A DNA stretch of 30,109 bases from a virus: the IMG/VR virus record IMGVR_UViG_3300034061_000870, positions 1-30,109 of that record. The stretch is one strand, 5' to 3'. The notes under the pieces were generated by a model, which was not told the origin of the DNA, ran no database searches, and worked only from the letters and a program-made list of their open reading frames with translations. The stretch's first letter is position 1. Every line of letters starts with the position of its first letter. Both the position numbers and the translations under genes were made by a program. Of the stretch, positions 67-27,308 are shown one piece after another.

Positions 67-369
67 TTACTGTGGTGGTTTGTTTCCTCTGCGACTGTTG
101 CACGATCTATGAGCTGCAATAAGAGGGCTAGAGGGGTCACCGGGGTAGTAGTGGTCAGCCGTAAAGGGGTCACCCAACCTACGCCCCTGCCCACATAGCC
201 AACACACAGTTGCAGTGTCTCTAACTATCTTTGCTTGTTTTGCGTAGTTTCCTTTGTAATGAGGTCTAGTAGCGTTCCTAGTAGCATCCGCAAGGCGTTG
301 GCAGTCATTGCATAGTGACGGATTACGGTGCAGTGCCTTGCACTTTAGACAAGGTTTATTAAATCCCAT
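67..369 (-). CDS. HNH endonuclease
   Basis: A 100-residue protein with a zinc-binding HNH fold. Two N-terminal CxxC pairs (CLKC at 8-11 and CNDC at about 20-23) precede the nuclease core: CWLC at about 56-59, ADHYYPGD (the DH of the HNH motif) and AHRSCNSRRGNKP, the usual histidine, last zinc cysteine and asparagine. Small HNH proteins of this type are commonly encoded beside terminase in phages with the HK97-type head and are thought to help packaging cleavage. Here it is the last gene of the minus-strand series and overlaps the gene before it by 11 bases. Terminase itself is not seen, so the packaging role is inferred. Confidence 0.85.
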   Translation of the reverse strand: MGFNKPCLKCKALHRNPSLCNDCQRLADATRNATRPHYKGNYAKQAKIVRDTATVCWLCGQGRRLGDPFTADHYYPGDPSSPLIAAHRSCNSRRGNKPPQ

Positions 370-922
370 TTGCTTTAACGATTACTTTGCCATTCGTATA
401 GGAGCGATACTGGTCTACCGTACCCCTAGTGTTGGGGTCATGCATACTCGCACTTTCAATTGCTCTTAATGCTGAAAAATCGTGGTTTCTATGCCAGCCC
501 GGTGCGTATTGTTTTTCAGCTAATGAACCTAGTGCTAGCTCTGCACCTGATCCAATAGCCCAATAAGGGCTGGCTGTTAGTACGCTCAAGTTCTCGCTGA
601 TGAGGAATGCTTTGCCATGCGTGACAAGTAAGGCTTCTGCATCCATCTCTGAATCTTTTATCTTGTTATCTATCAACGGCATAACCTTAACGACCATCCA
701 CTTAATCCAGTTGCCTGACTTAACAACGTCTATTGGTGGCTTGGGGTATTCGATTGAATACTGCAACTGATCGCACACTCTTGCGCTTCCGGCTACTCCG
801 ATAAGCCATGTGTCTTGCTGAACGATCTTGTGCATGTCAGGGTGAATAAGGTTTGACGTTATGCCTTGGTCTGCCGTTAGCGTGGCAAAGTTGTTGCCTG
901 TTGTTGTGATGATCGTGGTCAT
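359..922 (-). CDS. HslV/proteasome-beta-like Ntn-hydrolase
   Basis: A 187-residue protein that reads like the proteolytic subunit HslV (family T1). After removal of Met1 it begins TTIITTTG, giving an N-terminal threonine nucleophile as in HslV (TTIVSV). Asp18 in TADQG falls at mature position 17, exactly where HslV and proteasome beta subunits have the catalytic aspartate. Lys32 in MHKI is near the family lysine 33. WLIGVAGSA and WAIGSGAELALGSL match the HslV AGFAGG and AIGSGG blocks (Ser125). No HslU/ClpX-type ATPase is visible nearby. Likely a threonine peptidase or a repurposed Ntn-hydrolase; substrate unknown. It overlaps its upstream neighbour by ATGA. Confidence 0.75.
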   Translation of the reverse strand: MTTIITTTGNNFATLTADQGITSNLIHPDMHKIVQQDTWLIGVAGSARVCDQLQYSIEYPKPPIDVVKSGNWIKWMVVKVMPLIDNKIKDSEMDAEALLVTHGKAFLISENLSVLTASPYWAIGSGAELALGSLAEKQYAPGWHRNHDFSALRAIESASMHDPNTRGTVDQYRSYTNGKVIVKANGI

Positions 923-6883: not shown

Positions 6884-7038
6884 TGCTTTGCTCCTGTCAT
6901 TAGTTCTATTGCTGATCTGATCACTTGACTTACATTGGCGTTATGTTGATGCGCCCATTGTCTAACTGCAAGCATCTGCTCATTGTTAAGCCGCAATGCA
7001 ATTAGATTCTCTTTCGTTTCTTTCTGTTCGTCAGCCAT
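6880..7038 (-). CDS. Ribbon-helix-helix DNA-binding protein, 52 residues
   Basis: A short frame with the MetJ/Arc/CopG pattern: a basic start, the strand NLIALRLNNE, helix A QMLAVRQWAHQHN, the turn ANVSQ and helix B VIRSAIELM. Such proteins bind short operators as dimers, usually as repressors. It overlaps the methyltransferase C-part gene at its start (by 8 bases) and the downstream gene by ATGA. It is the only small classical repressor-type protein seen besides the HTH protein at 9944 and the WhiBs, so it is a candidate for the 19-bp element near 8371 and 18845; that link is inference. Confidence 0.7.
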   Translation of the reverse strand: MADEQKETKENLIALRLNNEQMLAVRQWAHQHNANVSQVIRSAIELMTGAKQ

Positions 7039-7576
7039 TGCTAACCCTTCCTAGTTGTTGTCCTATTGACTCAATTACGTTTACTGTTACTGCGTTGCCC
7101 ATTTGCCGGTAACGCTGCGAGTCTGATTGTGTATCAGTCCATCCATCAGGGAAGCCCTGTAAGCGTTCACATTCCATAGGAGTCAAACGGCGTACTTGCA
7201 ATGGTTCAGCTATAAAAGTTTGTGCGTGATGTGACTGCACACTTGGTTGTAATGCTTGCAATGCTCTCGCCTGTTCTATTTCTGTTGCGCTGAAATTGTT
7301 TGCTGTCGCATCTTCACGAATTGAGTAAGCGATAGCAGGCACATTGCCGCCACCAGTTCCCCAACGCTGAATAACTGTCTGCATAGTTTCTTGATCTGTC
7401 ACGCGCACGTCACCTACTCTTGTTCCGTCAATAATTAACACCGTTGCTCTACTCTCTCCACCATTATCAAAAGCATTTAGGGTAGTAGTTACCCCCCCCC
7501 GCTTCCATGTTTCGTCATCGTGTTCGTTTTGCGCTCTACGAGCTTTAACAAACCACAATTTTGTTATCCCCGACAT
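7031..7576 (-). CDS. Cytosine-C5 DNA methyltransferase, C-terminal part
   Basis: A 181-residue frame with the second half of a C5 methyltransferase: the target-recognition region (KARRAQNEHDDETW, TLNAFDNGGESRATV), motif IX (VRRLTPMECERLQGFPDGWT) and motif X (RYRQMGNAVTVNVIESIG). It has its own ATG and a weak AAAGGG upstream, so it could be made separately, as the beta subunit is in M.AquI. It contains a run of nine G (7492-7500 on the plus strand as C). It is in the same frame as the N-part, but two stops lie between them. Split subunit, phase-variable or broken gene are all possible. Confidence 0.8.
   Translation of the reverse strand: MSGITKLWFVKARRAQNEHDDETWKRGGVTTTLNAFDNGGESRATVLIIDGTRVGDVRVTDQETMQTVIQRWGTGGGNVPAIAYSIREDATANNFSATEIEQARALQALQPSVQSHHAQTFIAEPLQVRRLTPMECERLQGFPDGWTDTQSDSQRYRQMGNAVTVNVIESIGQQLGRVSNG
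7492..7500. repeat. Poly-C/G tract of 9 in the methyltransferase
   Basis: Nine consecutive C on the plus strand (G on the coding strand), in the target-recognition region, encoding RGGV. The reading frame is intact across it as given. Such tracts slip readily in replication and in sequencing. Confidence 0.8.
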
Positions 7577-7660
7577 ACTGATTGCTTATCCCTTTTGAGT
7601 CACTAGCGCATAAAGTCCCAACAATTTCTGAACCTAAGACTGGACTAGCAGTGAGTCGCT
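7545..7660 (-). pseudogene. Out-of-frame methyltransferase segment between the two parts
   Basis: Between the poly-G tract and 7545 a third frame reads VLGSEIVGTLCASDSK and GISNQYVGDNKIVV before a TAA at 7547-7545. This resembles the segment after motif VIII of many phage C5 methyltransferases (GTLxARDYKGVGNQYV type). It therefore belongs between the N- and C-parts: one shift at the G10 tract enters this frame, and a compensating shift near 7545-7560 (for example in the AAAA run) would leave it. The gene thus appears whole apart from two indels. Confidence 0.6.
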
Positions 7661-8362
7661 CCCCCCCCCCAATGCTCCGCCAGAAACGGTTAAAGTTGCA
7701 ACTCTTCCTTCTTTGTATCCTGCAAAGCTAGATTCGCCGTAGATTCCAACGCTTGCTGAAGCGGTTCTGGAAGTGTCTTGCCCCTCTTGTTGGCTCGCCT
7801 GAGTATTCCTTGTGCTGCTTTCGCACTTAGAAAGTATTTCTCTAAAGGGTTTTGTTCCAACACTTGCGATAACAAAGACTCTTCTACGGCGTTGGGGGAC
7901 TCCGAAGAATTGCGAATCAAGCAAACGCCATTCGATGTTGCTATACCCTGAGTCGGCCAATGCAGAGAGGACTGCTCCGAAGTCGCGACCTTGATTGCTT
8001 GAAAGAAGTCCCGGCACATTTTCCAAGAGGATAGTTTCTGCTTTGGTATGCGTTGCGAAACGCAAAGCGTCATAGAAAAGTCCACTTCGTTTGCCAGATA
8101 AGCCAGCCCGCTTTCCTGCAACAGAGAGGTCTTGGCAGGGGAATCCGCCACAAACAAGGTCAATGTTTCCTGTGAGTCCAATTTCATCAGCCCAATCTAT
8201 TGCTGTTGTTACGTCATCGTGCTTTGGCACGTTAGGGAACTGCAACTTAAGCACAGATCTAGCGTGTTTATCTATTTCAACTTGACCAACGCAAGTGTGA
8301 CCTGAGCGTTCAAGCCCTAAGTCGAATCCACCTACGCCAGCGAACAAGGATACAAACTTCAT
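7634..8362 (-). CDS. Cytosine-C5 DNA methyltransferase, N-terminal part
   Basis: A 242-residue frame with the catalytic half of a Dcm-like enzyme that transfers methyl from S-adenosylmethionine to cytosine C5. Motif I is FAGVGGFDLGL (7-17), motif IV GGFPCQDLS with the nucleophile Cys76, motif VI LLENVPG (114-116 ENV), motif VIII VPQRRRRVFVIA. After motif VIII the frame runs into the G10 tract and stops 8 residues later, so motifs IX and X are missing here and lie at 7031-7576. It would protect phage DNA from host restriction or mark it. The ATG has no ribosome site and lies just after a promoter-like element, suggesting leaderless translation. Confidence 0.88.
   Translation of the reverse strand: MKFVSLFAGVGGFDLGLERSGHTCVGQVEIDKHARSVLKLQFPNVPKHDDVTTAIDWADEIGLTGNIDLVCGGFPCQDLSVAGKRAGLSGKRSGLFYDALRFATHTKAETILLENVPGLLSSNQGRDFGAVLSALADSGYSNIEWRLLDSQFFGVPQRRRRVFVIASVGTKPFREILSKCESSTRNTQASQQEGQDTSRTASASVGIYGESSFAGYKEGRVATLTVSGGALGGGSDSLLVQS
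7661..7670. repeat. Poly-C/G tract of 10 at the methyltransferase frameshift
   Basis: Ten consecutive C on the plus strand. With ten G the catalytic frame ends at once in LLVQS; with eight or eleven it continues into the conserved-looking segment at 7545-7660. The tract is thus at the point where the frame is lost. Confidence 0.85.
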
Positions 8363-10971: not shown

Positions 10972-11154
10972 TTAATCCTTATCGTCATCTTGTCGTAAGG
11001 GTAATGTTACCAGCCAGACGAATGCACCGATAACAATGATGTACCCCGTAACTGTACGAGCTGAACCAGTCAATGTTGCATAGGCAATAAGTAAACCTAC
11101 GAACGTATAAGTTTCACCAGTAATCTCACGCAGGTATCTCTTTAACCACTTCAT
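10972..11154 (-). CDS. Small two-helix membrane protein, holin candidate
   Basis: A 60-residue protein with a basic start (MKWLKRYLREITG), two hydrophobic segments (about 16-31 and 36-53) and a charged end (RQDDDKD). That is the size and topology of a class II holin. It lies directly upstream of the endolysin gene (2-base gap) and overlaps the proline-rich gene by ATGA, supporting a lysis function. Confidence 0.6.
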   Translation of the reverse strand: MKWLKRYLREITGETYTFVGLLIAYATLTGSARTVTGYIIVIGAFVWLVTLPLRQDDDKD

Positions 11155-12578
11155 TTTATTTTCCTAACTTGCGCTACCTGTGTCACAACGACTGCTGCAA
11201 CTACTGTGTTCTGTGATGTTTCGCGTTCCTCTGGTGTCATGTCTGCACCTACGTTCACGAATGCTTTAAGTGCTTTTGCAGGATCGTTGAGAATTGCACC
11301 TATAACTTCTGCGCCTGACTCAAAGATTTCTATTGCATCTGCTATCTCAGCAGTTAAGACAACGCCGTTCTCTAAAGTTACTGGTTGATCTGGTGGCAAG
11401 TCCTCATAATCAAGCCCGGCTTCCTGCAAGGCTTCAAAGGTAATTGGCTCACCAGCAAACTCAGTAACCAGCGCATCAGCTACAAGTTCACGTTCTGCGT
11501 CTGTAAGCACACCGTCAGCTAAAGCATCTTCTATAACTACCTGCGTTACTTCCTCAACCGTTGGCTCAGAAGTTGGCTCTAAATTTGGCACTAAATCTGA
11601 TGCTGTTGGTGTCGGCTCTACGACAGGCACAGGAGCAATCTCAGACACGCTAGGGGTAGGTGTTGGCGTTGGCTCAGGTGTTGGCTCTAATGTTGGTTCT
11701 AGAGGTGATTGAGATGAGTCATTGGGTTGTTCAGGCTCTACTGTTGATTGAACTGGCGGTGCTGGTGGTTGTGATGGCAGTGCTGGTAGTTGTGTCTGCG
11801 TTGTGGTTGGTGTGGGTTCTGGGGTCGGCTCTTGTGGAATTACTGGTGCAGGTTCTTGCGTAGGTTCAGGCACTGGCGTTGGCTCTGGGTTCAGGCTTGG
11901 TACAACGCTTGGGACTGGCTCAGGTTCTACGCTTGGAGTTGGCTCAGGGGTCGGTTCTAAACTTGGCTCTGGTGTTGGTACAACTGGCGGTTCAGTAAAG
12001 CTGCTAGGAGTTGGTGCAGGTGTTACTTCAACAGGAACGCCACCGTCACCAACATCAAATGCCCCAGCAATCGTTACAACTGGTGTGCCTTGCTCATAAC
12101 GAATGCCACGCCTTAGATCAGCAGGCAACCAGCCAAAGGTAGTAACTTCACCATGCCAAGTTCCATTGGGGTACTTGTTAATCACTAGACGTATCTGTGT
12201 TAGGTCACCTTGCGACTGTGGGTATGGGCGCAGACTCCACTCAACGCATAACGTGTTAGCAGTTGAGCCAAATGAAACATAAGCACCCTGCCCAAATGTC
12301 ACCCAGTCGTAACCTGCAACTGAAACACTTGGGGTCTGTGGGTAATCGTTAAACGTAGCATCAGGCTGACCAAAGGTAAGAGTGCCGTTAGTGGTCACAA
12401 AGACGTTCTCGTATTCCGTAAGCCCTAGCTTTAGCGTGAATGGCAAGTTGGCAGGATAAGCCGTGTCATCGTGACCGGTGTAGCTGTAAGTATTACAAAC
12501 AACATCTGCCTTAGCAGGTGTCGCATACATAAATGCTCCGACAAGTAGCGCAGTTAGGGCAACCCTGATGCGCTTCAT
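11151..12578 (-). CDS. Secreted, membrane-anchored proline-rich protein
   Basis: A 475-residue protein with four parts. Residues 1-24 are a signal peptide (MKRIRVALTALLVGAFMYA, cleavage near AKAD). Residues 25-190 form a beta-rich domain with NVFVTTNGTLTFG and two cysteines, resembling nidogen-type (NIDO) sandwiches. Residues 190-345 are low-complexity PEPTP-type repeats, a typical wall-spanning stalk. The rest is acidic and helical (ADGVLTDAERELVADAL), ending in a hydrophobic stretch (NTVVAAVVVTQVAQV) and RKIK, like a membrane anchor. It is probably exported by the infected cell. Superinfection exclusion, lysis or a virion role are possible; I do not recognise the family. Confidence 0.7.
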   Translation of the reverse strand: MKRIRVALTALLVGAFMYATPAKADVVCNTYSYTGHDDTAYPANLPFTLKLGLTEYENVFVTTNGTLTFGQPDATFNDYPQTPSVSVAGYDWVTFGQGAYVSFGSTANTLCVEWSLRPYPQSQGDLTQIRLVINKYPNGTWHGEVTTFGWLPADLRRGIRYEQGTPVVTIAGAFDVGDGGVPVEVTPAPTPSSFTEPPVVPTPEPSLEPTPEPTPSVEPEPVPSVVPSLNPEPTPVPEPTQEPAPVIPQEPTPEPTPTTTQTQLPALPSQPPAPPVQSTVEPEQPNDSSQSPLEPTLEPTPEPTPTPTPSVSEIAPVPVVEPTPTASDLVPNLEPTSEPTVEEVTQVVIEDALADGVLTDAERELVADALVTEFAGEPITFEALQEAGLDYEDLPPDQPVTLENGVVLTAEIADAIEIFESGAEVIGAILNDPAKALKAFVNVGADMTPEERETSQNTVVAAVVVTQVAQVRKIK

Positions 12579-18099: not shown

Positions 18100-18825
18100 C
18101 TAAGTGGCAGAAGCACCTGCCATTAACTCTAGAAACTCACGGCGAATGTCTAGCCGTATTTCCTTTTGACTCATTCCATTGTACCTAGAAACGTCAATGT
18201 CCTTAAATTCTATTTCACACTTGGTGCATACCTTTGTGAGTGTGCATCTGCATTCCCACTTGTCTACTGGTCTTTGTGTTTCACGCTTAGTGATAGTTAC
18301 AGGTGGTCGGTCTGTATAGCGATGCTCAGGTGCTTGCATAATCTCGCCGTTGCCACGAATAGTCTGATGCTCTGAATTAGGTGCGTGTTGTGGTGCAAAG
18401 AAGATACGGGCTGGGTCGCTAGTCTGTGGATCGCCAACAATGTCTAGGAACTCGTGCATCTGTTTCCAGACTGAATACCATTCATGGCTAGGCACAGGTT
18501 CACTAAACGGGATAACAATGTGCCAGTGCTGGTCATCAGGTGAGTGGCTGTAAGTCGTATAAGCGATGTACTCAAACCCTTGCAGTTTGTCTAACGTATT
18601 GTTTAAGGCTTCGCCGTCTAGGTCAGCAACGAATGCGTTGATAGCAATTACGTTCTTGTTACCTCTAAAGCCGTTCTCAACGTAGGTAACAGGGCTGTAT
18701 AGATGCCCCTTGTATTTGTCCTCACGCTGGGCATGATGTGAGAGCAGGCTTACAAAGCTAGACCAATCATCTGCGTATGGCTTGGGTCTGTTGTCCTTGA
18801 CTGACCACCATTTAACTGCGTACAT
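18100..18825 (-). CDS. AEP primase-like protein
   Basis: A 241-residue protein resembling the archaeo-eukaryotic primase core found in plasmid and phage primase/polymerases. Motif I is AFVADLDGE (Asp68, Asp70), motif II is DDQHWHIVIPF (sxH type, His102), motif III is DPQTSDPARIFFAPQ (Asp137). The C-terminus carries WECRC and KVCTKCEIEF, a likely zinc knuckle. It would make primers or short DNA. It lies out of place between tail genes and has its own upstream element (18845-18863), so it may be an inserted cargo gene. It could also be a non-catalytic AEP relative. Confidence 0.6.
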   Translation of the reverse strand: MYAVKWWSVKDNRPKPYADDWSSFVSLLSHHAQREDKYKGHLYSPVTYVENGFRGNKNVIAINAFVADLDGEALNNTLDKLQGFEYIAYTTYSHSPDDQHWHIVIPFSEPVPSHEWYSVWKQMHEFLDIVGDPQTSDPARIFFAPQHAPNSEHQTIRGNGEIMQAPEHRYTDRPPVTITKRETQRPVDKWECRCTLTKVCTKCEIEFKDIDVSRYNGMSQKEIRLDIRREFLELMAGASAT

Positions 18826-21224: not shown

Positions 21225-21890
21225 CTAAGTCTTGTCTATTCTACTTGCTTGTAGAAGCAATACATCTTGAAGATACTGAGCAATGGTAGACCTTGCCTTT
21301 ACATCACAAGGAACGAAGTGACCAGCGTAGGCATAATCAACGTCAATGCTTAGAGTGCAGTCATAGGTTGCCCCAGCTACTGCGGTTCCAATCCAGAAAC
21401 ACCAATCTTCATAAGGTGAAATTCTTTGATCAAAAGTATTCTCATTCCAGACCCACCGCCTAACAGGTGAACCACAAGGAATCATGTTTGCTTGCAGACT
21501 CAGTATCTGTTCAGCCGTGACATTAGCTGGTGTCCAGATTTGCCCGGTGTCGTACTGGAAACCTAAAGCCAAAACGTCAGCCTCACAAGTATCTAACTTG
21601 TCTAAAGCATGTGGTCGGTATCTATCGTCAATCCCAATCCAAGCAATCCATTCTGTGTCACAGTATTCAAAGCCAAGATTTAACATGTCGCTAAAAGCAA
21701 AATCATCAAACCAAGGAACTACGGTAACTCCGTCTAAGTCATAGTCAGATTGTTTTATATCAACATAAAGAACTAGAACTATTTTGTCTGGCTTTCTCTT
21801 AAGCGATCTAACAGAATCAAGCCAGCCCTTTATGTGTTCAGGGTAACTATGGCAAACACCAACTACACCTACTGTTGTACTAGTTTCCAA
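21225..21890 (-). CDS. Glycosyltransferase, GT-A (GT2-like)
   Basis: A 221-residue GT-A-fold transferase. Signs are the N-terminal VGVVGVCHSYPEHIKGWLDS, DKIVLVLYVD (first strand), EWIAWIGIDDRYRP with the metal-binding aspartate pair, and ISPYEDWCFWIG (acceptor ED-W motif). It starts with TTG at 21890, overlapping the preceding glycosyltransferase by 22 bases, with no clear ribosome site. Placed beside the capsid gene, it could glycosylate virion proteins or modify host surface sugars. Confidence 0.75.
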   Translation of the reverse strand: METSTTVGVVGVCHSYPEHIKGWLDSVRSLKRKPDKIVLVLYVDIKQSDYDLDGVTVVPWFDDFAFSDMLNLGFEYCDTEWIAWIGIDDRYRPHALDKLDTCEADVLALGFQYDTGQIWTPANVTAEQILSLQANMIPCGSPVRRWVWNENTFDQRISPYEDWCFWIGTAVAGATYDCTLSIDVDYAYAGHFVPCDVKARSTIAQYLQDVLLLQASRIDKT

Positions 21891-22672
21891 AATGTATCGC
21901 CTGCCTTATCTATCATGTGGCGCAGTGCATCAGCATCGTGCCAATCTTCAACGCTAGTAATTCCTACGTTCTCGTTAGTGTGAATCCTGCAACCTGAAAG
22001 CACCGCTTCCATAACTGCGCGACACTCTGACTCAAATGCTAAAGGCAAATGAACAAACCACTCGCACCTAGCCATTGCATCAAGGACTTGTTCACGCGGT
22101 ACATCTGTCAGAGCTTTGAACTCGTAGCCTGCCTGAGCTGCCCAAGCATGAGCGCGTAGCTGACCTTTTAACGGGTGACTCCTAGCAGCCCATAAAGCAA
22201 ACGGTTGCTTATCCATGTGATCGTGACACTTGTTGGTGTCGAAGTAACTTAGAACCTGCGCTGTCTTGCGTGGCTTACTCCAAGATAATTCTTTGCGCAT
22301 GTGTGCCGGGGTATGAGTTACGAATAAGCGAGAGCCACGAATCAAAGCGTTAAGTCCAGCGCGTGGGGTTTGTAAGTGATGCACAAATACGAACGGGTCA
22401 TACTCAGCCAGTCTGTATAACTGCTCATCTGTGAACGCATCTGTGCCTGTGACAATGACTGAATCGAATTGGTGTATGTCATGTGTATCGAATGTGTATG
22501 GCGTGACAATCTCGATCTCATAACCCAGAGGTGCTTGCATACGGTATTCGTAGTCTGACATTTCAGCCCCACCTGCAAACTGCCCCGTGAATAGTCCTGT
22601 GGGACTCACAGAGCCATTCTCAGCCACGTTAGGCGCATTCTCTATGTGATGCGTGTACCAGCCGATTTTCAT
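21869..22672 (-). CDS. Glycosyltransferase, GT-B (GT4-like)
   Basis: A 267-residue protein with a GT-B outline. Its C-terminal half carries EWFVHLPLAFESECRAVMEA and VLSGCRIHTNENVG, the E-x7-E type sugar-nucleotide site of GT4 enzymes (FESECRAVMEAVLSG). The N-terminal domain has VIVTGTDAFTDEQLYRL and FVFVHHLQTPRAG. It is shorter than typical GT4 enzymes (about 350-400), so the N-terminal domain is minimal. It follows the longer GT4 gene by two bases. Confidence 0.72.
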   Translation of the reverse strand: MKIGWYTHHIENAPNVAENGSVSPTGLFTGQFAGGAEMSDYEYRMQAPLGYEIEIVTPYTFDTHDIHQFDSVIVTGTDAFTDEQLYRLAEYDPFVFVHHLQTPRAGLNALIRGSRLFVTHTPAHMRKELSWSKPRKTAQVLSYFDTNKCHDHMDKQPFALWAARSHPLKGQLRAHAWAAQAGYEFKALTDVPREQVLDAMARCEWFVHLPLAFESECRAVMEAVLSGCRIHTNENVGITSVEDWHDADALRHMIDKAGDTFWKLVQQ

Positions 22673-22674
22673 GC

Positions 22675-23850
22675 TTAGAGTCGCTCGTAGGCTTTAGTAT
22701 CTAACACGGCTAGAACAGGCTTCCAGTGTTCCTCAAAGACGGTATCCGCGTTATACGCCTTAGCAAACTCTTGAGCCTTTTCTGATCTGCCCCTGCCACG
22801 CTGATAAGCCTGCTCTAGTGCATCCACGATTGCTGGAACGCTAGGCATGTGGAACCAAGAGGACTGCGGTGCATCCCATAGCGGTTGCCCGTCAATAAGC
22901 CAGCCGTCACCTAGTAGCTCGGTTGAAGCTGCAAAGTCGCTAATGATTACAGGTGTGCCACAGGCTTGCGCTTCAATAGTCGGAATACCAAAACCCTCAC
23001 CGTATGAGGTGGCAAGCAGAACATCCATCGCCGTGTAGATCGTGGATAGGGTCTGCTGGTCTATGCCGGTGCGGTAGACGTAAGGATCAACAAACTTAAA
23101 CTTGTCCTCTGGTACTCCACAGGATTGAAGCAACTGCAATAACTTGATGCCACCTAATGCGCCCATCTGATCTGTGTGTAGATAAAGAACAACGTCATCG
23201 TGCTTCTGGGCAAACATAGAGAACGCAAGAATGTTCTCACCAAATGCCTTGCGATTAGGACTCACGCCTTTGTTGGCTGCGTTCATACCAACAACAAACT
23301 TGTCCTCGCTGATACCTATGTAATCTCTGCCAGTAGTTCCCTTGTGTCGCTTCATTGGCTTAAAGACTGACTCAATGCCGTGTGGCACATAAAGAGATTC
23401 GATACCTACGTTCTCAATCATTGCCTGACCGTATTGGCTCATGGCAATAGGTGTTACAAAGTCTTGACGTAACCACTTAGTTACTTCTGGCGGTGCAGGG
23501 ATGTGATCTATTGGAACCCAGCTAGCAACATTCCAGTCAGCCCATCTAGGGCCTTTGAATACCCATACGTCATAGAGAGTGAAAAGAATGTGACCTTGCT
23601 TAGGGTGGCGTGAACTCCAGTCGTGCATGTGTGCAGGAACTACATCGTTTGAATACATGTCTGCGCCACGTTGATAGACGGGCATCCCGTTCCAGTCTGT
23701 GTTGCTTCCCTCTAATCCGTAGTTGCTAAAGATTGCAACATCGTGACCAATTTGTTTTAGTCGCTGAGTGACTTGCGCTGTTTGAGTTCCATAACCAGTT
23801 GCAGCCCAAGGTGCATTGCTGTTCCATCCGATTGCTAAGGGTTTTGACAC
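22675..23850 (-). CDS. Glycosyltransferase family 4
   Basis: A 391-residue retaining GT-B enzyme. The donor site is clear: SYGEGFGIPTIEAQACGTPV (E-x7-E) followed by IISDFAASTELLGDGWLI. The N-terminal domain shows the acceptor-side GYGTQTAQVTQRLKQIGHDV glycine-rich loop. Start is GTG at 23850 after AAGGAA. It lies just after the terminator downstream of the capsid gene, so the cluster is probably transcribed by read-through or its own promoter. Phage GT4 enzymes have been linked to decoration of virion proteins. Confidence 0.85.
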   Translation of the reverse strand: MSKPLAIGWNSNAPWAATGYGTQTAQVTQRLKQIGHDVAIFSNYGLEGSNTDWNGMPVYQRGADMYSNDVVPAHMHDWSSRHPKQGHILFTLYDVWVFKGPRWADWNVASWVPIDHIPAPPEVTKWLRQDFVTPIAMSQYGQAMIENVGIESLYVPHGIESVFKPMKRHKGTTGRDYIGISEDKFVVGMNAANKGVSPNRKAFGENILAFSMFAQKHDDVVLYLHTDQMGALGGIKLLQLLQSCGVPEDKFKFVDPYVYRTGIDQQTLSTIYTAMDVLLATSYGEGFGIPTIEAQACGTPVIISDFAASTELLGDGWLIDGQPLWDAPQSSWFHMPSVPAIVDALEQAYQRGRGRSEKAQEFAKAYNADTVFEEHWKPVLAVLDTKAYERL

Positions 23851-25321: not shown

Positions 25322-25504
25322 TTAGCGAGTTTCCTCTGGCTTAACAAGTCGAATCTCTTTAACTGGTTCAACAGTCTTTTGTTCTTCTGGGCAACAATCA
25401 TTAACAATCGCTTCTGCAATTACATCTGCATAATCTACAAATGCGCCAGACTCAGGATTACCAACTGCGTTCAGTAGGGACTTCTTTACATCATTAACAT
25501 TCAT
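25322..25504 (-). CDS. Small head-module protein, 60 residues
   Basis: A small acidic protein between protease and capsid genes. It reads NVNDVKKSLLNAVGNPESG, then DVIAEAIVND and a lysine/glutamate tail ending IRLVKPEETR. Proteins of this shape, with VKxxETR ends, are found at the same place in many actinophages; no function is established. It overlaps the protease stop (TAATG) and is followed at once by a terminator. Confidence 0.7.
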   Translation of the reverse strand: MNVNDVKKSLLNAVGNPESGAFVDYADVIAEAIVNDCCPEEQKTVEPVKEIRLVKPEETR

Positions 25505-27042
25505 TAGAAAGCCTTTAACATTAGGTCTAGTTGCTTGCGCTTAATCTCTAGCATGTCCACTTCACTTGGTTTGTCTGCGCGTAACTTCTGCACAACTTCT
25601 GAGATTAGATCAGCGTGTGAATCGTCTAGAGTTTCGCCGGCTTCTAGCTTTAGGATCGCATCGCTAAGAGCATCAACATCAACGGCTGTGCGCTGTGCCA
25701 AAATGTCTAACGAACGAACGGTTGCAGTTGTTGCTTCATAGGCTGGGAAGCCAGTCACGATAGAAACCTCATGCAGTCTTACCTGATGCAGTTCACGAGT
25801 TGCGCCATCTTGACTCCAAGCATCACCCTTTGGTGGAACGCTGAACCCAAATGACATGCTGGATACATCGCCACGCTTCATAAGAACCGACAAGTCGCGC
25901 CCTGCGGTTGTGTCTGGCAGTTCAGCCTGAGCTAGTAGACCGCGTGAATCCTCAGTTAGTTTCAAAGTTCCTGCACGAGTTGAGCCTAGAACTACGTCTG
26001 TGTTGTGGTTCATAAATAGCTTGATTTCGTTGCGCGACTTTAGAGAACGCTTGAATGCACCCTCACGGATTACCTCTGTAAACGGTAGCGGTTCTGACGG
26101 GCTATTGAACACGGCTGCATAACCAGTGAAACTCATGCCATCGCTAGATGCTTCCCCGTTACGAACATCAAACTCAACGGTATTAACTCGGCGTTCTACA
26201 TTGGTGGTCATTGACTGCCTTTCATCCTTGTTTAAGTTTAACGCTATTGTGCGCCACTTCTCATTCTGTAAATCGTTAGCGGTACGTTCCTCAGCGCGGA
26301 TACGTTCTACTACGCCTTGTGCGTATTCCAAAGCGCGTTGCGCCTGTCGTTTGCTTGGGCCTGATCCCCAAAGTAAATGAGCAACCACGCCTGCGCTTGG
26401 GTAGTTATCAGAGTCAGGGTTTGCATCTGGTGAATCAAGATCGCCTAAGTGACGAGCAATCCACGCAGCAATCCGAATCCACTTATCATCTGAAACTTGA
26501 CCATCTGCCATAAGCCGGGCTTCACGAATAGTGCGCTCAACTAAGCCATCGCCACCAAAGCCCTCAGCATTAAGTTCTAAGCCACGCCTTGCAGCTGACC
26601 GCATGTAGGCAGGTGCATCTTGATTTATAGCGCGTGAATCATCCTCATCGGCATCCATGTCATCATCTGACTGCCAAGCGTTGCAGTAGTAACCGCCATC
26701 AACAAAGTCATCCCACTTCTCGCACCATGCTTTGTCACCTGCTTCATTCACGCGATCTTCGTCATAGAACATGCAGTTGCCACAAGCGCGACCCTCTGGG
26801 ACATCCTCGGCTAGTGCTGGTCTGTAATTATCAGGAAGTTCGCGGTACATGGTTTTCATAGGTTTTGCTTTCTTGTGTTTCTTTCGCTCACCGCCGGGTT
26901 CCATGTCCTCAGCTAATGACACGGCAATCATCTGATCTATCGCATCCTGCTTGGTTGTATGGCATCCAATAACTTCGCCATCGTCTTTAATAGTTGCCCA
27001 TCCTGAACAACCTTCTGCGCTATCTGTTATGAAATATGGCAT
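25504..27042 (-). CDS. Prohead protease with long N-terminal extension
   Basis: A 512-residue protein, started at the ATG at 27042 that overlaps the upstream stop (TAATG); a TTG at 27066 would add 8 residues. Residues about 280-440 are an HK97-type (S78) prohead protease: VNTVEFDVRN, SFTGYAAVFNSPSEP, FMNHNTDVVLG (catalytic His) and GDVSSMSFGFSV (catalytic Ser). Ahead of it lie a small domain (GWATIKDDGEVIGCHTTKQD), a four-cysteine patch (CGNC, WCEKW, YYCNAW) and an alpha-helical domain (DKWIRIAAWIARHLGDLDSP). An internal ATG at 26211 after AAAGG could give a protease of ordinary size. Confidence 0.85.
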   Translation of the reverse strand: MPYFITDSAEGCSGWATIKDDGEVIGCHTTKQDAIDQMIAVSLAEDMEPGGERKKHKKAKPMKTMYRELPDNYRPALAEDVPEGRACGNCMFYDEDRVNEAGDKAWCEKWDDFVDGGYYCNAWQSDDDMDADEDDSRAINQDAPAYMRSAARRGLELNAEGFGGDGLVERTIREARLMADGQVSDDKWIRIAAWIARHLGDLDSPDANPDSDNYPSAGVVAHLLWGSGPSKRQAQRALEYAQGVVERIRAEERTANDLQNEKWRTIALNLNKDERQSMTTNVERRVNTVEFDVRNGEASSDGMSFTGYAAVFNSPSEPLPFTEVIREGAFKRSLKSRNEIKLFMNHNTDVVLGSTRAGTLKLTEDSRGLLAQAELPDTTAGRDLSVLMKRGDVSSMSFGFSVPPKGDAWSQDGATRELHQVRLHEVSIVTGFPAYEATTATVRSLDILAQRTAVDVDALSDAILKLEAGETLDDSHADLISEVVQKLRADKPSEVDMLEIKRKQLDLMLKAF

Positions 27043-27308
27043 TAGTAAAGTGTCTGCCTTAACCAAGAGATTGAATGAGAACCTGAAGAAGAAATTGCAT
27101 AAAGTGATTCACCCGGGTTCATAGTTAATTCAATGCTATCCAATTTCAACAATTGCAAACCATTGGCACTTGTAACACCTTCATTGCCCAAGTAAATGCT
27201 GTTCGTATTATCCATGTTATGAATGTGCAGGCGTGATGGATTTGGTGAAATGCCATCTACCAATTGACGAGTAGTCCCAATTGTTTGTTGCCCAGATGTA
27301 ATCGCCAT
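27042..27308 (-). CDS. Small beta-rich structural-type protein
   Basis: An 88-residue protein started at the ATG at 27308 after AAGGA; a TTG just before adds one residue. It has repeated short strands: RLHIHNMDNTNSIYLGNEGV, LDSIELTMNPGESLYAIS and SHSISWLRQTLY. This pattern recurs in small phage proteins next to head genes and resembles a compact beta-barrel, perhaps a capsid decoration. Function not established. Confidence 0.6.
   Translation of the reverse strand: MAITSGQQTIGTTRQLVDGISPNPSRLHIHNMDNTNSIYLGNEGVTSANGLQLLKLDSIELTMNPGESLYAISSSGSHSISWLRQTLY

Follow-up and report, generated by a model that had tools for sequence, protein, structure and literature searches.

A conserved proteasome/HslV-like threonine peptidase encoded without an AAA unfoldase in a small, probably actinobacterial phage

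Proteasome-type peptidases are usually fed by an ATP-driven unfolding partner, and what such an enzyme might do in a phage genome that encodes none is the question raised by a 30,109-nucleotide stretch of viral DNA (IMG/VR record IMGVR_UViG_3300034061_000870). This stretch, hereafter the window, is a 30.1-kb fragment without terminase genes, in which an earlier note made from the sequence had described an HslV/proteasome-like peptidase without an ATPase. The open reading frame lies exactly where it had been placed, on the minus strand and encoding 187 residues, and the neighboring genes shown here are all found on the same strand:

67-369, minus: HNH endonuclease (phrog_338, 9e-8), starting within the end of the peptidase gene with an 11-bp overlap
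359-922, minus: proteasome/HslV-like threonine peptidase, 187 aa (PHROG, AlphaFold2, alignments)
919-1215, minus: 98-aa protein, function not assigned, its stop overlapping the peptidase start (ATGA)
1344-1625, minus: second HNH endonuclease, upstream of the peptidase (phrog_144, 1e-12)
2077-2451, minus: single-strand DNA binding protein (phrog_44, 1.6e-26)
2451-2801, minus: WhiB-like regulator (phrog_472, 2.8e-13)
25504-27066, minus: canonical head maturation protease (phrog_80, 1e-89)

The translated protein begins MTTIITTTGNNFATLTADQG, opening with M-T-T-I, so that its first threonine becomes residue 1 once the methionine is removed. In ORF numbering the predicted catalytic set comprises Thr2, Asp18, Lys32 (the Lys33 equivalent), Gly45 of the oxyanion hole and Ser125; counted without the methionine, these are Thr1, Asp17, Lys31, Gly44 (within AGSA) and Ser124 (within IGSGA). 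Lys31 corresponds to Lys33 in E. coli HslV (the sequence used is identical to PDB 5JI3), the offset coming from a preceding loop that is shorter by two residues; the window protein features the N-terminal Thr/Ser nucleophile, Asp17, Lys33 and the oxyanion glycine alike. All the motifs singled out in the earlier note are borne out by the translation: the threonine after the methionine, the aspartate at mature position 17, the lysine near position 31, and the AGSA and IGSGA blocks in HslV order. As judged from aligned residues, with the chemistry taken from the family, the active site appears intact.

An AlphaFold2 model built from 33 diverse sequences (mean pLDDT 90, pTM 0.88) predicts an Ntn-hydrolase alpha-beta-beta-alpha fold around a beta-sheet core, with strands and helices in proteasome order and helices at residues 47-56, 64-69 and 72-87; an earlier model from 21 close sequences reached a pLDDT of only 60 and was set aside. 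Foldseek comparison with the PDB recovered beta subunits of the 20S proteasome, BPH of Thiobacillus and HslV of Staphylococcus, at E-values of roughly 1e-8 to 1e-10 (TM about 0.65-0.73, identity 13-19%), whereas among predicted viral structures it matched an uncultured Caudovirales protein, 45% identical and with a TM of 0.93, as well as phage proteins annotated as HslV or proteasome. The predicted fold is thus that of an Ntn-hydrolase, and the different fold that the earlier note had named as evidence against its claim did not appear.

Profile searches likewise place the protein in the proteasome/HslV superfamily, of MEROPS T1 type. PHROG 1040, 'peptidase HslV family', matches residues 1-173 with an E-value of 5e-20 and also matches ten diverse relatives, and a profile of the 33 sequences searched against solved structures finds BPH 5OVU as the best hit, aligned along almost its full extent with an E-value of 3.9e-8, followed by archaeal beta subunits and HslV. 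The Pfam family PF00227 scores 20.5 against a curated cut-off of 22.4 bits (E 4e-4), just under threshold, and the NCBIfam scan of the peptidase matched no HslV model and gave nothing beyond a weak match to archaeal proteasome beta; the Pfam shortfall reflects a score threshold and no biological feature, and it is the fold and family-profile searches that decide. The earlier description consequently stands as to a phage-encoded Ntn-hydrolase of the proteasome/HslV superfamily; the protein resembles HslV without being HslV proper, since BPH is the nearest solved structure by profile and no HslU accompanies the gene.

IMG/VR contigs yielded 32, then 39 and finally 79 kept loci with relatives, at identities of 31-88%. 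Thr1 is retained in 62 of 62 phage homologues as well as in E. coli HslV, so the loss of the threonine in close homologues, which the earlier note had named as evidence against its claim, did not occur. Lys33 is likewise retained in all 62, its correspondence to HslV resting on a separate alignment because HslV is misaligned at the lysine in the combined set, and the oxyanion glycine is kept in all but three. Position 17 is an aspartate in 51 of the homologues and a glutamate in the remaining 11, the glutamate carriers forming one supported clade; this sister clade (L072, L075-L078, L080, L082, L086, L089, L092 and L093) features a SESGIT motif, and 11 of 11 members keep Thr1 and Lys33. In ORF numbering, Thr2, Thr3, Asp18, Lys32 and Gly45 are invariant not only across 21 close sequences but also in a broader set of eight with identity down to 28%. 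The window peptidase falls in a clade with a fork support of 100/100, although the deep branches of the tree are long and their order unsure, and within it the median of pairwise dN/dS values is about 0.1, indicative of purifying selection. Together, the relatives, the residue conservation and the dN/dS argue that the gene is functional and its active site selected for; a chance ORF or a decayed gene is ruled out by the relatives, the dN/dS and the fold.

In five homologues (L006, L080, L082, L086 and L118) an in-frame stop immediately precedes the start codon, so that a propeptide is impossible there. As a separate observation on start sites, the 'peptidase HslV family' gene of Moorella phage MTATph1 (L117:3001-3043) has its start annotated 14 codons late, losing the catalytic threonine, and an upstream TTG start restores the expected M-T-C-I beginning.

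How does the protein relate to systems already described? Fuchs, Alva and Lupas in 2021 described 22 new proteasome homologues, among which PPH was called the first true viral member and AAH was reported in many phages, with none in Actinobacteria-specific phages (PMC8665760), and HslV without HslU was also noted in a jumbo Salmonella phage (PMC7823757). Annotated relatives are further found in GenBank actinophages, namely Actinomycetia phage DSL-LC01 ('ATP-dependent protease subunit'), Arthrobacter phage Pitbull ('protease', gp77) and Microbacterium phage Pumpernickel ('protease', gp135), which belong to the same family and have actinobacterial hosts but are of different phage types; their homologues share no more than about 26-36% identity with the clades described in this work, that of DSL-LC01 reaching 43% with one locus (L108). 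Given both the 2021 survey and these annotations, proteasome-type peptidases in phages are an already known kind, to which the window gene adds a member. A search of the open literature brought up no experiments on HslV-like proteins of phages, and the earlier remark that they are little studied is fair as to function, less so as to recognition, such phage proteins having been named in 2021 (PMC8665760).

Sampled members of PHROG 1040, a very diverse family in which the window peptidase has its own clade, show the same Thr1/Asp17/Lys33 pattern. PPH and AAH share with it the character of phage-encoded group I proteasome homologues with no propeptide and no known unfoldase; PPH is, however, about 140 aa long and without helix H2, whereas the window peptidase has 187 aa and, in the model, retains H2, and by this length and predicted helix it is not a PPH. 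It may instead belong to AAH, sequences of which come from alphaproteobacteria and actinobacteria (for example WP_035979212), to CPH or to a further subgroup. The beta-proteobacterial BPH (PDB 5OVU/5OVS), which in bacteria forms a double ring of heptamers whose pore carries a long acidic loop (PMC8665760), superposes on the model with a TM of about 0.66-0.68 at about 16% identity. With HslV (ClpQ) the protein has in common the order of the MTTI start, Asp17, Lys33, AG(G/S) and IGSGG/A, but the profile match is weak, HslU is missing, the C-terminal part is longer and, unlike in HslV, a conserved YPxPP stretch follows helix H1. The window peptidase is nearer in kind to BPH and HslV than to true proteasome subunits.

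Searches with the AAA and AAA_2 families (PF00004, PF07724) found no unfoldase in the 30.1-kb window and no match in 18 of 20 related phage records. These 18 include a 33,208-bp record (G014) that is a complete circular genome, as deduced from its 123-bp terminal overlap, and HslU is encoded neither there nor in the window; as far as the AAA and AAA_2 families go, the description 'without an ATPase' is accordingly correct for both. In the other two records (G019 and G020) the AAA matches correspond to a ~260-aa ATPase seen in the genome of phage ct2KA10, whose length and N-terminal sequence suggest a RecA-like ATPase, and they are ruled out as an unfoldase. The absence of an AAA unfoldase from the phages would fit a proteolytic chamber that docks on a host ATPase (Clp, HslU or actinobacterial Mpa/ARC) and steers it toward selected proteins, and all characterized energy-dependent relatives work in this manner. 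Fuchs et al., however, found a co-occurring AAA+ partner for none of their new homologues (PMC8665760), and we regard such docking as possible but doubtful. With no phage unfoldase at hand, the likeliest work of the enzyme is the degradation of peptides or of already unfolded proteins.

A conserved active site is in itself no proof of proteolysis, since connectase has the same fold yet is a ligase (PMC8665760). That precedent, together with nearly invariant extra residues (Arg48, YPxPP and PYWAIGSG) that could mark a specific substrate, would be compatible with a non-proteolytic Ntn-hydrolase, an amidase or connectase-like protein ligase whose target would be a single protein of the host or the phage. 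The model, however, has both helix pairs and no S3/S4 insertion, unlike connectase, and the closest relatives by profile are peptidases, which makes this alternative quite unlikely.

The genomic setting offers clues to both host and timing. In the minus direction the window-type order runs from an annealing protein through RusA, WhiB, SSB, small genes, HNH and the 98-aa protein to the peptidase, and continues with HNH, a ParB-like/methyltransferase gene and the small and large terminases; the terminase lies beyond the window edge and is placed from relatives, TerS and TerL being named there by sequence and position rather than by family search. The peptidase overlaps both of its neighbors by a few bases, which suggests one transcript. 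The HNH endonuclease (family F4) is its commonest downstream neighbor, in 34 of 42 records, and the order protease, one gene, HNH recurs at the genome end of Pitbull, with the terminase at the other end. The 98-aa upstream protein is present in 31 of 42 records and in some is absent or split off by an inserted methyltransferase; missing or displaced in several relatives, it is ruled out as an obligate partner. Elsewhere in the window, all on the minus strand, we observed an apparently split cytosine DNA methyltransferase (7031-7576 and 7634-8362, the catalytic and C-terminal parts), a 475-aa secreted-looking protein with long Pro-Glu-Pro-Thr repeats (11151-12578), a primase/replication-protein-like ORF inside the tail gene region beside the tape measure gene (18100-18825), and three glycosyltransferase-like ORFs (21225-23850) with the major head protein on one side and the downstream head-tail genes on the other.

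Two WhiB-like genes in the window phage and the actinobacterial hosts of the annotated relatives point to an actinobacterial host, and the phages of the window peptidase's clade, which are small (about 33-35 kb) and seen here only as uncultured phages, are probably actinobacterial as a whole. Scans of 84,980 bacterial and archaeal species genomes with clade patterns found no bacterial copy; these used exact short patterns and therefore show only the absence of close copies. Proteasomes are frequent in actinobacteria, and the fold is that of beta subunits, both of which could suit an inactive relic or a dominant-negative mimic that poisons the assembly of the host proteasome or HslV. Yet the catalytic residues are conserved and purifying selection is strong over very diverse phages, rendering this highly improbable; co-assembly with a host proteasome is moreover unlikely at an identity to proteasome subunits of about 15%, and the competition with its assembly entertained in the earlier note finds no support. 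The other proposals of that note, work with a host unfoldase and breakdown of a host factor, are conjectural.

The adjacency of the window-type peptidase to HNH-TerS-TerL raises the further prospect of a role in virion morphogenesis, where the enzyme would trim or destroy a scaffold or packaging protein. A second setting is suggestive in this regard: in the ct2KA10-type phages, of about 39 kb, every one of the 14 loci in which a portal gene was matched (L121:7500-8036, L096-L107 and L112) has the 178-aa homologue starting 15-17 bp past the portal stop. Small genes come next, then large internal proteins, and after these a scaffold-like gene and the major head protein. The slot right after the portal is the usual place of the capsid protease, and the eight ct2KA10-type head-region proteins tested gave no match to a PHROG head maturation protease. 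Against this, the homologue in ct2KA10 shows no more than about 27-30% identity, the window-type gene is found on the side of the terminase that faces the replication genes, and the window phage, like Pitbull, has a head maturation protease of its own, so that the HslV-like peptidase is not needed for head maturation here. We consider the morphogenesis role unlikely overall; the portal-adjacent placement is a lead only, for the ct2KA10-type phages, and does not extend to the window phage with its canonical protease. Broader recruitment of a proteasome-fold peptidase into head assembly and packaging, as a capsid-region protease in ct2KA10-type phages and as a means to tune the HNH-TerS-TerL packaging module in the window's phages, is improbable, but if true would bring a novel catalytic type to the proteases of phage morphogenesis.

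In light of these results we propose, as a reasonably probable though by no means certain reading, that the protein is a working threonine peptidase, probably organized as a ring, and that in infected cells it cuts peptides or unfolded proteins, either unaided or together with host factors. With no propeptide to process, the start methionine would be removed by host methionine aminopeptidase, exposing Thr1 as the nucleophile, which Asp17 and Lys33 would assist with Gly45 (ORF numbering) in the oxyanion hole, as in the family at large. Ring or double-ring assembly of the subunits would probably follow, since the active forms of the proteasome, HslV and BPH, which share this fold, are rings of this kind. 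Degradation may fall in mid-infection, at about the time of replication and of packaging onset, a timing suggested by gene order only, with the peptidase acting by itself or with a host chaperone or unfoldase.

Phage relatives of the proteasome were named in 2021 without a function; here they gain a well-sampled clade in small, probably actinobacterial phages. The strictly kept active site and two fixed genomic settings, before HNH-terminase and directly after the portal, make that function testable, and the finding bears on how a proteasome-type chamber may work in the absence of an unfoldase; it may also touch on the way phages control proteins of the host or the virion.
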